Assembly: GCA_024402895.1 (NCBI GenBank)
Contig: JAKSSX010000006.1
Coordinates: 1 to 43,002 of the forward strand
Length of the DNA stretch: 43,002 nucleotides
Direction: 5' to 3'
Source of the DNA: Candidatus Saccharimonadota bacterium
Lineage (GTDB): Bacteria > Patescibacteriota > Saccharimonadia > Saccharimonadales > Saccharimonadaceae
The position numbers were made by a program, and so were the translations under genes. Shown piece by piece: positions 21,326 through 28,160 of the stretch. Under the pieces are notes generated by a model that saw only the letters and a program-made list of their open reading frames with translations, was not told the origin of the DNA and made no database searches. The number at the start of each line of letters is the position of its first letter. Within the stretch, counting starts at the first letter, position 1.

Positions 21326-22072
21326 ATGTCTCGACGCGCCCGTTATCGAATGCGTCGCATTAGCGCGGTTATTATCGCCGCGCTACTTTTTGGGGTACTA
21401 ATTCTTACTAATCCAAAAGCCTATGAATATGCCAGCATGTTAGGCTTTTCGGATGAAAAACTTCCAGACTATAAAGCCGAGCAGAGCAAAGCTGATTCTC
21501 TACTCGCAAAAGATGTTCTGGAAGATCTTGCAGTCAAAGAAAAGGATACCGAGCATAAATATTATCGCAAACAATTCTACGATAGCTGGGCAATCACTGA
21601 TAGCGGCTGCAATACTCGTGAGGCAATTTTGGCACGCGATTTAACGGATATTTCCTATAAGGATGAAACCTGCAAAGTTGCGACCGGAACACTAATCGAT
21701 CCTTATACCGGCAAGACAATAAAGTTTGAACGTGGCGATAGTACTTCTGCTGCAGTTCAGATTGATCACGTTGTTGCGCTCAGTAATGCTTGGTCTACTG
21801 GTGCCTACTTATTGACTCCGGAAGAGCGCCTAGCCGTCAGTCAGGATCCGCTTAATCTTCTAGCGGTTGACGGCCCGGCAAACCAAGAAAAATCCGACCA
21901 AGCTGCTGATACTTGGCTTCCAAGTAATACGGATTTTCAATGCCAATATGTCGCGCGTCAGATTTCCGTAAAGTATAAATACCATCTATGGGTCACGCCG
22001 CCAGAAAAACTTGCTATGCAAAAAGTCCTCGCGACTTGCCCAGAAGAGCCTACTCGAGGACTACAAAATTAG
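21326..22072 (+). CDS. Exported HNH nuclease (DUF1524 / GmrSD C-terminal type)
   Basis: The 248-residue protein begins with an Arg-rich stretch and a hydrophobic signal/anchor helix (AVIIAALLFGVLILT, about residues 14-28), so the bulk lies outside the cytoplasm. The C-terminal half has the DUF1524 HNH pattern: VQIDHVVALSNAW with the DH catalytic pair, then DPLNLLAVDGPANQEKSDQ (the N and K of the HNH beta-beta-alpha-metal fold). Four Cys probably form disulphides. Relatives include secreted non-specific nucleases of Gram-positives. Inferred roles are degrading extracellular DNA for nucleotide scavenging or processing DNA for uptake. It starts 2 nt after rbr and is therefore coupled to it, an unexpected pairing. 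The 3' end overlaps the convergent rnhB-yraN gene by 23 bp. Confidence 0.82.
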   Translation: MSRRARYRMRRISAVIIAALLFGVLILTNPKAYEYASMLGFSDEKLPDYKAEQSKADSLLAKDVLEDLAVKEKDTEHKYYRKQFYDSWAITDSGCNTREAILARDLTDISYKDETCKVATGTLIDPYTGKTIKFERGDSTSAAVQIDHVVALSNAWSTGAYLLTPEERLAVSQDPLNLLAVDGPANQEKSDQAADTWLPSNTDFQCQYVARQISVKYKYHLWVTPPEKLAMQKVLATCPEEPTRGLQN

Positions 22073-22967
22073 TCACTGATTTATCGCCATTGACGGAAAT
22101 AGCCGCCAATTGTGCGCCCATATCGGGATGATCCTGTAGATATAATTCCGCCGCGAAGTGCATTTGCTCCTGCTTTTTCGCAGTAATAGCATCAATGCCG
22201 CTGTCGTCTTTGCGTGTTTTAACCTCTACAAAATACAAAGAGTTATCTTTTTGTGCGACGATATCAATTTCACACCATTTAGTTTTCCAGTTGCGCTCAA
22301 TAATCTCAAAGCCTTGCCCGATAAGGTAGCTGGCAGCCGCTTCTTCGCCTTCGCGCCCACTAATGATATGGCTAGCGACGGCTTTCTGCGGAGCAGTCTC
22401 GGCGATCTCGGCAACGGGCCTAAAACTAAAACGATGTTCTTCGCACGGACCTAATTCTAATAAAGCCTTTTTATGCGCGGCCGTTCCGTAGCCTACATGT
22501 TTTTCGAAACTATAACCAGGGAAGCGCTCGGCAAGCTCAATCATATAATTATCGCGCGCAACCTTCGCAATAATTGAAGCCGCAGAAACCTCAGGCACTA
22601 ATAAGTCCGCCTTTGGTTTCACGGTTACGAATTTTCCGAGTGGGGTATCGCTAAGGAAATTAATCGTGCCATCAATAATAATTCCATTAAATTCGGCATG
22701 CGCGGCCTGAACTTGCTGGACGGCTTCGCGGCAAGCTTTGCGTAAGGCAGCAGATAAACCGATCTTATCTAGCTCTGAAGCAGAAACCCAGCCAAGGCCA
22801 CAAAAAGCCTTCTCGTGAATTTCGGCAGCCAAAACCTCGCGACGTTTCGCGCTCAGTTTTTTACTATCGGTCAGTCCTTCGATCGGCTCGCGCAAAATAC
22901 ATGCACCAACAACAAGAGGTCCCGCCCAGGGACCTCTGCCGACTTCATCTATTCCAAGTAGTTTCAA
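22050..22967 (-). CDS. rnhB: RNase HII fused to a YraN/UPF0102 nuclease-like domain
   Basis: Residues 1 to about 190 are RNase HII, which removes ribonucleotides from DNA: GIDEVGRGPWAGPLVVGA with the catalytic DE pair, TDSKKLSAKRRE, IIDGTINF and VSAASIIAKVARD are all present. From about residue 200 a second domain follows: GREGEEAAASYL, then CEIDIVAQ and LYFVEVKTRK, the E-I-D and E-x-K motifs of the YraN (UPF0102) PD-(D/E)xK-like family. The usual Gly before EID is replaced by Cys. The two are commonly neighbouring genes; here they are one continuous frame of 305 codons. The start is TTG, one nucleotide after the rplS stop, so translation depends on coupling to rplS. Confidence 0.93.
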   Translation of the reverse strand: MKLLGIDEVGRGPWAGPLVVGACILREPIEGLTDSKKLSAKRREVLAAEIHEKAFCGLGWVSASELDKIGLSAALRKACREAVQQVQAAHAEFNGIIIDGTINFLSDTPLGKFVTVKPKADLLVPEVSAASIIAKVARDNYMIELAERFPGYSFEKHVGYGTAAHKKALLELGPCEEHRFSFRPVAEIAETAPQKAVASHIISGREGEEAAASYLIGQGFEIIERNWKTKWCEIDIVAQKDNSLYFVEVKTRKDDSGIDAITAKKQEQMHFAAELYLQDHPDMGAQLAAISVNGDKSVTNFVVLE

Positions 22968-24092: not shown

Positions 24093-24124
24093 TAAAGCTT
24101 ATGCTTGAATCGGCCTAAAAATTT

Positions 24125-24133
24125 TGCTAAAAT
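24125..24133 (+). promoter_or_regulatory. Extended -10 promoter of the putative structured RNA
   Basis: TTTTGC-TAAAAT predicts a transcript starting near 24140, a few bases before the first stem at 24142. Confidence 0.5.
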
Positions 24134-24139
24134 GATACT

Positions 24140-24372
24140 CGTTGCTCTGGGAACGTGTGTATTATAACTATCACAGTTTGGGGACATAGTCGTAAAGAGC
24201 GATGGCTTTGCTAGTATTTATGGGATCGCCATGCAGTCGCAGGCGATAAGCTAAAGAATAGAAGTAAAGCAATATTACGTAAGCAGGAGAAACCATGAAA
24301 AAGCGTAACCGCAAGGGGACGCTCCAAGTGGACGCGCTTCACTGGAATGAATATATCGAGGTGTAAGCGCAC
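24140..24372 (+). ncRNA. Candidate structured RNA, family not recognised
   Basis: This stretch between ruvA and the dsbA-like gene has its own extended -10 and a strong terminator. By eye it folds into several long-range helices. One is a 7-bp closing stem (24142-24148/24196-24202) enclosing a 5-bp stem (24167-24171/24186-24190). A second is a 12-bp stem with one 2x2 internal loop (24205-24218/24257-24270) enclosing ATCGCC/GGCGAT (24225-24230/24242-24247). A third is a hairpin at 24324-24345 whose loop GCGCTT (24334-24339) can pair with AAGCGC (24365-24370) as an H-type pseudoknot. It has no tRNA-like domain (not tmRNA), no SRP GGAA/AGCAG core, and no RNase P P4 consensus. A 23-codon ORF with a good ribosome site lies in its 3' half, so a cis-regulatory leader is the main alternative. 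Confidence 0.5.
24295..24366 (+). CDS. Possible 23-residue ORF inside the structured RNA
   Basis: ATG 24295 is preceded by GCAGGAGAAACC, a well-spaced Shine-Dalgarno, and reads 23 codons to TAA at 24364. The peptide starts MKKRNRKGTL and ends HWNEYIEV: basic at the N-terminus, acidic and aromatic at the end. I know no family for it. The stop codon lies in the sequence that can form the pseudoknot, so the same bases serve both readings. Either this is a leader or small protein behind a structured 155-nt 5' UTR, or the ORF is incidental to an ncRNA. Confidence 0.3.
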   Translation: MKKRNRKGTLQVDALHWNEYIEV

Positions 24373-24404
24373 AAAAAATAATCGCCCGTAGGCGATTATT
24401 TTTT
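24373..24404. terminator. Strong bidirectional terminator
   Basis: A perfect 14-bp stem (AAAAAATAATCGCC/GGCGATTATTTTTT) closes a CGTA tetraloop, with T-runs in both directions. It ends the structured RNA on plus and the dsbA-like gene on minus, whose TAA stop (24403-24405) overlaps the stem. Confidence 0.9.
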
Positions 24405-26068: not shown

Positions 26069-27013
26069 ATGCACGGGTTGGGCATTAATATTAACGACAT
26101 CAATGACCGCATCGACTTTTGTAATTATTTAGCGGTCGCTCAAATTTTCTTGCAAGATAATTTCTTGCTCAAGCGTCCGCTTGAATTTTCAGATATCAAA
26201 CCACGTCTTCTTGGCCACTGGGGTTCTTGCCCAGGTATCAACATTGCTTACGCAAACCTCAAGGCGCGTTTTCCTCATATGCAGTTTATTCTTGGCCCAG
26301 GTCATGGTTTTCCTGCGCTTCAGGCAAACCTTTTCTATGATGGCGATTTGCAAGAATATTACCCAGATGCAACCCATAATCTTCATGGTATCGAATACAT
26401 TTGTAAGAATTTCTCATGGCCATACGGTTTTCCTTCGCACTCCAGCCCAATGACGCCAGGCGTTATTGCTGAAGGTGGCGAGCTTGGCTATTCTTTGGCT
26501 ACCGCTTACGGCGCATCTCTCGGTCGCCCAGACAAATTCATTGCTGTCTTAATCGGCGATGGCGAGATGGAAACCGCAACTGCGCTAGCAAGCTGCAATC
26601 TCAATAAGCTACTAAATTCCGACGGCAACGGTCGTGTTCTTCCAATTCTTCACCTCAACGGTTACAAGATTTCTGCGCCAACTATTTATGGTCGCAGTAG
26701 TGAGCGCGAGCTTCTTCAGCTCTTCCGTGGCTTCGGCTATGATCCAGTAATTGTCGACGGTACTAATACTGAAGAATTCCAGACAGTCCTAGCTGACCTC
26801 AAGAGCAATTCGTTTATCATTATGAAGACGCCAAAGGGCTATACTGGCCCACGCGAGGTTGATGGCGTAAAAGTCGAAGGTAACTGCGCGTCGCATCAGG
26901 TCCCACTTCTAAACGCGAAGACCGACCGCGAACAGCTAAAGATGCTAGAAGATTGGTTAAATTCATATAATTTCAAGGAGCTTTATGATAGATTTGCCTA
27001 CGAGAATAGATAA
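26069..27013 (+). CDS. xfp: Phosphoketolase, N-terminal (TPP pyrophosphate-binding) subunit
   Basis: Phosphoketolase splits xylulose-5-phosphate (and fructose-6-phosphate) with phosphate into acetyl phosphate and a smaller sugar phosphate. This 314-residue protein covers only the first domain of the normal enzyme of about 800 residues. The family motifs are intact: LLGHWGSCPGINIAYANL (first active-site His), GPGHGFPALQANL (second His), GFPSHSSPMTPG with EGGELGYSL (third His), the TPP/metal-binding IGDGEMET and ILHLNGYKISAPT. It ends with NFKELYDRF, where the linker to domain 2 begins in single-chain enzymes. The second half starts inside its last 29 bp in another frame, with its own Shine-Dalgarno. 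Confidence 0.93.
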   Translation: MHGLGININDINDRIDFCNYLAVAQIFLQDNFLLKRPLEFSDIKPRLLGHWGSCPGINIAYANLKARFPHMQFILGPGHGFPALQANLFYDGDLQEYYPDATHNLHGIEYICKNFSWPYGFPSHSSPMTPGVIAEGGELGYSLATAYGASLGRPDKFIAVLIGDGEMETATALASCNLNKLLNSDGNGRVLPILHLNGYKISAPTIYGRSSERELLQLFRGFGYDPVIVDGTNTEEFQTVLADLKSNSFIIMKTPKGYTGPREVDGVKVEGNCASHQVPLLNAKTDREQLKMLEDWLNSYNFKELYDRFAYENR

Positions 27014-28160
27014 TCCAGGTGAAGAGCAGGGCTCTAGTGCACAGGTTTTTGGTGACGCTTTGCGCGAAGAAATGTATCGCTATGAAGATTTTTACTTCTT
27101 CTCACCAGATGAAACGACTTCTAATCGCCTTTCTGCAGTTTATGACGCAACCGATCGCGCTTGGACTCGCCATGTAGAGCCATGGGATAAAAGCCTCGCT
27201 CCAAACGGTCGCGTTATTGAGATGCTTTCCGAAAATACATTATTCGCAGCAATGGCTGGCCATATTCTTAGTGGCGGTCGCGGTTGTATGACTTCTTATG
27301 AAGCATTCCTTCCGATTATTTCCTCTCAGCTCGATCAGCATCTAAAGTTCTTGAAGCAGAGCAGCGAATTTGAGTGGCGCAAAGACGTTCAGCCTCTTAA
27401 TATTCTTTCGACTTCTTGCTGGCAGCGCCAGGATCATAACGGCTACACGCATCAGAATCCAGCACTTATTTCTAGCGTTCTCTCAAAGCCATCCAATCGC
27501 GTAAACTGCTATTTCCCAGCAGACGATGTATCCGCAGCTGCAGCTTGGGAGCATATGAGCTCCACTAAGAATGTTGTGAATCTTACAACATTTAACAAGA
27601 ATCCTCAGCCACGTTGGATTGATATTAATCATGCTCGCTATCAGCTTGGCGACGGTCATGGCTGCTCGATTTATCAGTTCGCTTCCGATGAAAACCCAGA
27701 TATTGTAGTTGCTGCTATCGGCGACATTCCTACAACCGAAGCATTAGAGGGTATTAAGCTCGCTAAGGCAGAAGCTCCAAATCTTAAGGTTCGCTTCGTT
27801 GGTATTAGCGCACTTTCCTATGCTGCAATCGGTACTACGGACAATAAACTTCTTCCTCATGATTTCGATGACGTATTCACTCGCAGCAGGCCAATCGTTG
27901 TTAACTTCCATGGTTATTCCGAGACTATTCGCTCAATCTTCTCTCACTACGTAAATCCGATTCGTCTATCTGTTCATGGCTACGAAGATCAGGGCTCAAC
28001 CACCTCGCCGCTCGACGAGCTTGCTCGCAATCACTGCTCACGCTACGATATCGCGGCAGACATTCTAGAACGTTCCGGTAATTATGGCCACGCTCGCAAA
28101 TTCGAGGATTATATCATCGAAAATGCCCATTTTGCGCACCTTACTGGTCTAGATAAATAG
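26985..28160 (+). CDS. xfp: Phosphoketolase, C-terminal subunit
   Basis: This 391-residue protein supplies the remaining two domains of phosphoketolase: FFSPDETTSNRLSAVYDATD (with the catalytic Glu of the family's 'GPDETxSNRL'), SCWQRQDHNGYTHQNP (the His that contacts substrate phosphate) and a C-terminal domain with FHGYSETIRSIF and SVHGYEDQGSTTSP. With the preceding gene every conserved block of the enzyme is present once, in order. The total of 705 residues is about 90-100 shorter than usual, mostly through a missing inter-domain linker. ATG 26985 has AAGGAG 4 nt upstream. The frame is +1 relative to the first gene and the overlap is 29 bp, so translation is probably coupled rather than frameshifted. 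Confidence 0.93.
   Translation: MIDLPTRIDNPGEEQGSSAQVFGDALREEMYRYEDFYFFSPDETTSNRLSAVYDATDRAWTRHVEPWDKSLAPNGRVIEMLSENTLFAAMAGHILSGGRGCMTSYEAFLPIISSQLDQHLKFLKQSSEFEWRKDVQPLNILSTSCWQRQDHNGYTHQNPALISSVLSKPSNRVNCYFPADDVSAAAAWEHMSSTKNVVNLTTFNKNPQPRWIDINHARYQLGDGHGCSIYQFASDENPDIVVAAIGDIPTTEALEGIKLAKAEAPNLKVRFVGISALSYAAIGTTDNKLLPHDFDDVFTRSRPIVVNFHGYSETIRSIFSHYVNPIRLSVHGYEDQGSTTSPLDELARNHCSRYDIAADILERSGNYGHARKFEDYIIENAHFAHLTGLDK

Follow-up and report, generated by a model that had tools for sequence, protein, structure and literature searches.

The window, by which we mean the whole 43,002-nt stretch of DNA that was analysed, corresponds to contig C18 in a genome of 785 kb. Most of its relatives in a public genome collection carry the label Candidatus Saccharibacteria, and many come from ruminant gut samples. 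Apart from the window ends, positions 24093–24402 (310 bp) are the sole stretch longer than 150 bp that stays uncovered when ORFs of at least 90 codons are counted, in agreement with the original prediction, which had described this as the only gene-free gap of about 300 bp in a tight region. Pfam assignments place ruvA (+) on one side of the gap and a convergent dsbA-like thioredoxin gene on the other. Two other features of the window were noted by eye: a single 305-aa ORF at 22050–22967 (−) that appears to be an RNase HII fused to a YraN/UPF0102-like nuclease domain, and a phosphoketolase-like gene at 26069–28160 (+), which takes the form of two ORFs (314 and 391 aa) that overlap in different frames, possibly because of a frameshift.

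A predicted promoter occupies 24105–24133 (+) and is composed of a −35 box (TTGAAT), a 17-nt spacer and an extended −10 (TGcTAAAAT). Because the promoter scan yielded 2 sites versus 1.0 expected by chance, support for this assignment comes from conservation of the box, which is kept, together with its position 5′ of the microprotein ORF described below, throughout the genus; relatives carry TTGAA or TTGACA, a spacer of about 17 nt and an extended −10. At the other end of the gap lies a bidirectional intrinsic terminator (24373–24404) common to the convergent dsbA gene. This 14-bp A-tract/T-tract hairpin was read directly from the sequence, the automated scanner having missed it because the T-run sits within the stem, and nearly all relatives have a hairpin with a T-run 3′ of the stop codon. 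The extended −10 and the terminator first proposed for this gap are both borne out by these comparisons, and the inferred transcript is monocistronic, with a length of about 0.26 kb. No same-strand gene was found 3′ of the microprotein ORF, where the terminator and the convergent dsbA gene come directly.

A microprotein ORF under purifying selection

The ORF at 24295–24366 (+) comprises 23 codons (MKKRNRKGTLQVDALHWNEYIEV) with a TAA stop, and its Shine-Dalgarno sequence, AGGAG at 24285–24289 (+), lies inside a near-invariant TAAGCAGGAGAA block. Among the same-genus relatives examined first, all 24 gave DNA-search matches, the match spans the ORF in 23, and the block conserved most often coincides exactly with the Shine-Dalgarno sequence plus the ORF. 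A profile search recovered the ORF, in the same frame and of the same size, in 44/45 genomes of the genus (G011 lacks it), and nearly all relatives' ORFs fit the consensus MKKRxRKG[TA]LxV[DE]xLxWN[ED][YF]IE[MVI]. Across 26 distinct ORFs, we obtained a pS of 0.40 and a pN of 0.10, corresponding to a dN/dS of about 0.18. Indels inside the ORF involve whole codons only, with an in-frame insertion of one codon in some relatives, while the spacer between the Shine-Dalgarno sequence and the ATG accommodates single-base differences, and the stop codon swaps between TAA and TAG. Since the ORF is present in 44/45 genomes with this dN/dS, shows no internal frameshift and has single-base variation confined to the spacer before the ATG, we conclude on comparative grounds that it is a real coding gene under purifying selection. 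An ORF with a good Shine-Dalgarno sequence had been pointed out in the 3′ half of the gap, and it is this one.

The microprotein gene always lies 3′ of ruvA in the relatives' loci first compared, and by the same comparisons its inheritance between ruvA and dsbA is vertical within one genus. One locus bearing this genus-specific gene (L094, JAITNW010000006.1) is titled Candidatus Nomurabacteria, and the title is probably wrong. We found no match to the microprotein outside the genus in 247 genomes of the order and 380 of the phylum, and the idea of an ancient small protein was rejected on this result; among the genomes searched, the gene is restricted to a single genus of these ultrasmall bacteria, the Saccharibacteria, from the gut. 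Searches of Pfam, NCBIfam, PHROGs and PDB gave 0 matching families or chains, and our literature search found no paper that deals with microproteins or small RNAs in this group of Saccharibacteria. Small structured mRNAs that encode a microprotein are a known kind of locus; this family of them is new.

The microprotein has a soluble, charged composition, with a basic N-terminus (KKRxRKG) and, towards the C-terminus, W-N and E residues that never vary; these features make binding of RNA or of a protein complex more likely than a membrane role. Its first codons are also constrained at the RNA level. GGG encodes Gly8 in 26/26 distinct ORFs, although it makes up only 7.8% of Gly codons in the genes nearby; Lys3 and Lys7 invariably use AAG, and the last two bases of codon 9 are CG throughout, so that the third base is fixed at codons 3, 7, 8 and 9. 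A candidate ORF-internal hairpin at 24302–24323 (+), AGCGT/ACGCT with AAGGGG in its loop, would account for these fixed synonymous sites, a suggestion that is weakly supported because four of its five pairs never change.

A structured leader with a conserved unpaired core

Between the promoter and the Shine-Dalgarno sequence lies a conserved 5′-UTR element (24134–24206, +) made up of a basal helix, P1, a hairpin, P2, and an unpaired core. The 5′ arm of P1 (CGTTGCTCT) is at 24140–24148 (+) and its 3′ arm (AGAGCGATG) at 24196–24204 (+); P2 (AAC[G]TGTG/CACAGTT) occupies 24152–24178 (+), and the core (GGGGACATAGTCGTAA; genus form GGGG-N4-7-GUCG) 24180–24195 (+). In the window, the leader folds with z = −4.6 relative to dinucleotide shuffles. 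Relatives could form P1 as a helix of 6–11 bp whose arms change together, as in CTGCTCTC/GAGAGTAG, CTGCGCTC/GAGCGTAG and CTGCGCTC/GGGCGCAG, or in CATCGCTCTC/GAGAGCGTG versus CATTGCTCTC/GAGAGCATG. A total of 24 distinct arm pairs was collected, a set in which L103 was mis-picked (its P3 helix was chosen automatically) and L097 ends at a contig edge. A MAFFT alignment of all leaders placed the 5′ arm wrongly in the ATGCTC group, and we therefore relied on arm-swap tests and on a model derived from a well-aligned subset. When P1 arms were exchanged between relatives, 0/5000 swaps paired as well. In the covariance-model alignment, which, unlike the arm-swap tests, had been fitted to the structure and in which counts are inflated by kinship among the sequences, 91% of cells pair and 11/13 pairs of P1 and P2 show compensatory changes. 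The covariation score of P1 and P2 (0.293 versus 0.119) was reached by 0/500 shuffles, and sliding the pairing partner by a single base abolished the signal.

The initial covariance model, built from 9 sequences, placed the leader at the same position in 35/43 loci (E ≤0.3), with an E-value of 0.72 for the window. The rebuilt model, R2, matches the window's own genome with an E-value of 2e-7 and finds exactly one copy in 42/45 genomes of the genus. Outside the genus it gave nothing convincing in 199 genomes of the family and 295 of the order. Because P1 and P2 covary around a conserved unpaired core, the comparisons establish the leader as a real structured RNA. Covariation in the ruvA-dsbA gap, which had been put forward as the test of such an RNA, was thus found, and the 7-bp stem originally described is P1. 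The list of paired segments drawn up at that stage passes over the conserved core, which is the unpaired GGGG(N4-7)GUCG segment within P1. It had also been said that the pattern fits no tmRNA, SRP RNA, RNase P RNA or familiar riboswitch core, and an Rfam scan agrees: no match rose above threshold in the gap (best sub-threshold score 23.4 versus 55 bits) or in the leaders of relatives. Identity with tmRNA was rejected, the genome's tmRNA being located elsewhere (G000:C8:11081-11447; RF00023, 81.8 bits). The window core (AGTCGTAA) resembles 16S rRNA around 1494–1500; no 16S sequence for comparison was found in this genome, and mimicry of the decoding site was set aside as probable chance, the shared stretch being only GUCGU in much of the genus.

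Leader and ORF behave as a unit, because R2 matches in the genus fall on the leader of this ORF wherever both sets of coordinates were compared, and because a second copy in one genome, G298, carries both. That copy (L172, G298:C86:39100-40400) lies away from ruvA beside a pilin-like gene; P1 and the core are intact and the ORF is present, the Shine-Dalgarno sequence is degraded and weaker, and P2 is absent. It may reflect contamination of the MAG. P2 is also absent from L112 and appears dispensable. In G303 (L171, G303:C8:14400-15800), the promoter, ORF, synteny and a possible P1 are kept and the GGGG…GUCG core is gone, which means that the leader element is not indispensable. Judged across the genus, leader and ORF usually travel together, and the core is losable.

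Two further structures are confined to an 11-sequence subclade that consists of the window and the 10 distinct relatives closest to it. P3 (24205–24270, +) is a hairpin domain with an AG/GA 2x2 internal loop, in which 98.7% of cells are paired and 2 pairs show compensatory changes; it corresponds to the 12-bp stem with a 2x2 loop reported earlier, and its tip to the 6-bp stem. A pseudoknot joins GCGCTT in codons 14–15 (24334–24339, +) to AAGCGC overlapping the stop codon (24365–24370, +). Its stem takes the forms GCGCTT/AAGCGC, GCACTT/AAGTGC and GCGCTC/GAGCGC, is intact in 8/11 members of the subclade and covaries among them (6/5000 permutations as good). The original prediction of a pseudoknot coinciding with the end of the ORF therefore holds within this subclade and fails as a general feature, since the pairing was found in 0 of the other 26 distinct sequences checked; given this restriction, the element must have its core elsewhere.

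Mechanism and alternative explanations

Of the two outcomes first envisaged, a new small RNA or a leader controlling a small peptide, the second fits best because the RNA covaries and the ORF is selected; the coding signature rules out a stand-alone non-coding RNA. We put at roughly 55% the probability that the locus specifies a monocistronic microprotein mRNA with a cis-acting structured leader, possibly autoregulated. The covarying 5′-UTR structure, with its conserved core, is tied to one gene, and we infer that it would serve as a control element for its own microprotein. P1, together with P2 or P3, would expose the unpaired GGGG…GUCG core, close to the mRNA's 5′ end, for recognition by a trans-acting partner, and binding of this partner would alter mRNA half-life or the access of ribosomes to the Shine-Dalgarno sequence. 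The simplest candidate for the partner is the microprotein itself, with its basic KKRxRKG N-terminus, which would create an autoregulatory loop resembling those of ribosomal-protein leaders. Those leaders likewise combine covarying structure and a conserved unpaired core 5′ of a gene for a basic protein, whereas the product here has 23 aa, is genus-restricted and matches no ribosomal protein in Pfam, NCBIfam or PDB. More tentatively, the Arg/Lys-rich N-terminus may bind the GGGG…GUCG core of its own leader, and perhaps also AAGGGG in the first codons, with the stop-codon pseudoknot of the subclade as a further layer; this specific proposal is speculative. If true, it would be among the smallest known autoregulatory RNA-protein pairs, with a protein of 23 residues.

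Several other forms of control were considered and set aside. Predicted accessibility of the Shine-Dalgarno sequence averages 0.38, versus 0.44 with shuffled leaders, with no consistent effect of the leader, and therefore no simple switch that sequesters this site is visible. The ORF is not a leader-peptide attenuator for another gene, because the terminator and convergent dsbA come at once and leave no same-strand gene to regulate. A type I toxin-antitoxin system was dismissed as well: the peptide is charged and has no hydrophobic stretch, and the minus-strand promoter match is weak and at chance level.

Among the remaining alternatives to a cis-acting leader, the one we rank highest, while still considering it unlikely, is a dual-function small RNA that encodes the microprotein and would act in trans, with the core as a base-pairing seed on other mRNAs, by analogy with SgrS/SgrT or SR1/SR1P. 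Like these and RNAIII/delta-haemolysin, the predicted product is a short independent transcript, with its own promoter, structured regions, an intrinsic terminator and a small ORF, here one selected with a dN/dS of 0.18; an unpaired conserved core framed by covarying helices has the look of an sRNA seed, and synonymous constraint at the start of the ORF would fit. However, the core sits at the 5′ end and its spacing varies over 4–7 nt, unlike a rigid seed, and the ORF is kept in G303 without it. The present locus also differs from those systems in that the 23-codon ORF is its best conserved part and the fold is a 5′ leader near the Shine-Dalgarno sequence, with no sequence relation to them. 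Somewhat less probable again is that the leader merely stabilises the mRNA as a 5′-terminal stem-loop of the ompA 5′-UTR type, without ligand or regulation. The structure does start within a few nt of the predicted transcription start, placing a stem-loop at the extreme 5′ end as in ompA, and its helices are retained while the sequence drifts and P2 and P3 come and go, but this leaves unexplained, and departs from ompA-type stem-loops in, an unpaired core that is conserved in sequence.

A riboswitch, with a small molecule or ion bound at the core to control the microprotein, seems to us improbable. A compact conserved unpaired core in a covarying 5′-UTR stem is what one would expect of such an element; against this, it occurs before a single gene, in one copy per genome and in one genus, no known metabolic gene lies 3′ of it, no expression platform is seen, the spacing within the core is variable and Rfam gave no match. 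Least probable is a non-coding RNA with an accidental ORF: fixed synonymous sites and, in the subclade, a pseudoknot overlapping the stop codon could be so explained, but not a dN/dS of about 0.18, a frame and length kept in 44/45 genomes, TAA/TAG exchange or indels of whole codons only.

Saccharibacteria have very small genomes, their cell-state switching mechanisms are unknown, and control at the level of translation is expected to play a central part (PMC11665869). The gene described here, single-copy and genus-wide, is at once a folded RNA and a 23-aa protein, with no match in any of the protein and RNA family libraries searched, and is a concrete candidate regulator; structured leaders and microproteins of this group can be found by cross-species comparison of one intergenic gap.

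Leaders in other genera

In the other genera examined, a different gene, often ruvB, lies 3′ of ruvA. At one such locus (L070, genus g133), ruvA is followed by a strong promoter and a leader before a small protein with KGG repeats (MAGTALGAAKAAKTNRERYGKDFYARIGRKGG...), which replaces the microprotein gene.

Genus g25 carries a 5′-UTR element with a strong promoter, a stem at the start site and, in two copies, a GGGGCAAAAGTCG-like core. It differs from the leader described here in that its core is a GGGC/GCCC hairpin, it occurs in several copies per genome with different downstream genes, and its R2 match is non-significant. Homology was rejected, the E-values of 0.02–0.04 per genome being at chance level over 199 genomes and the hairpin being a different one. 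The g25 loci (L155-L163; genomes G133, G138, G360, G364 and G368) contain a multi-copy cassette of promoter and 5′ UTR, with up to three copies per genome and the sequence TTGACTTTTTT...TATATATATTAACTTTTGCTCAAAGT...GGGC(A/G)AAAGTCGCCC...CTTTGAGC. Several small ORFs of different kinds follow these cassettes, and the N-terminus is hydrophobic in many of them.
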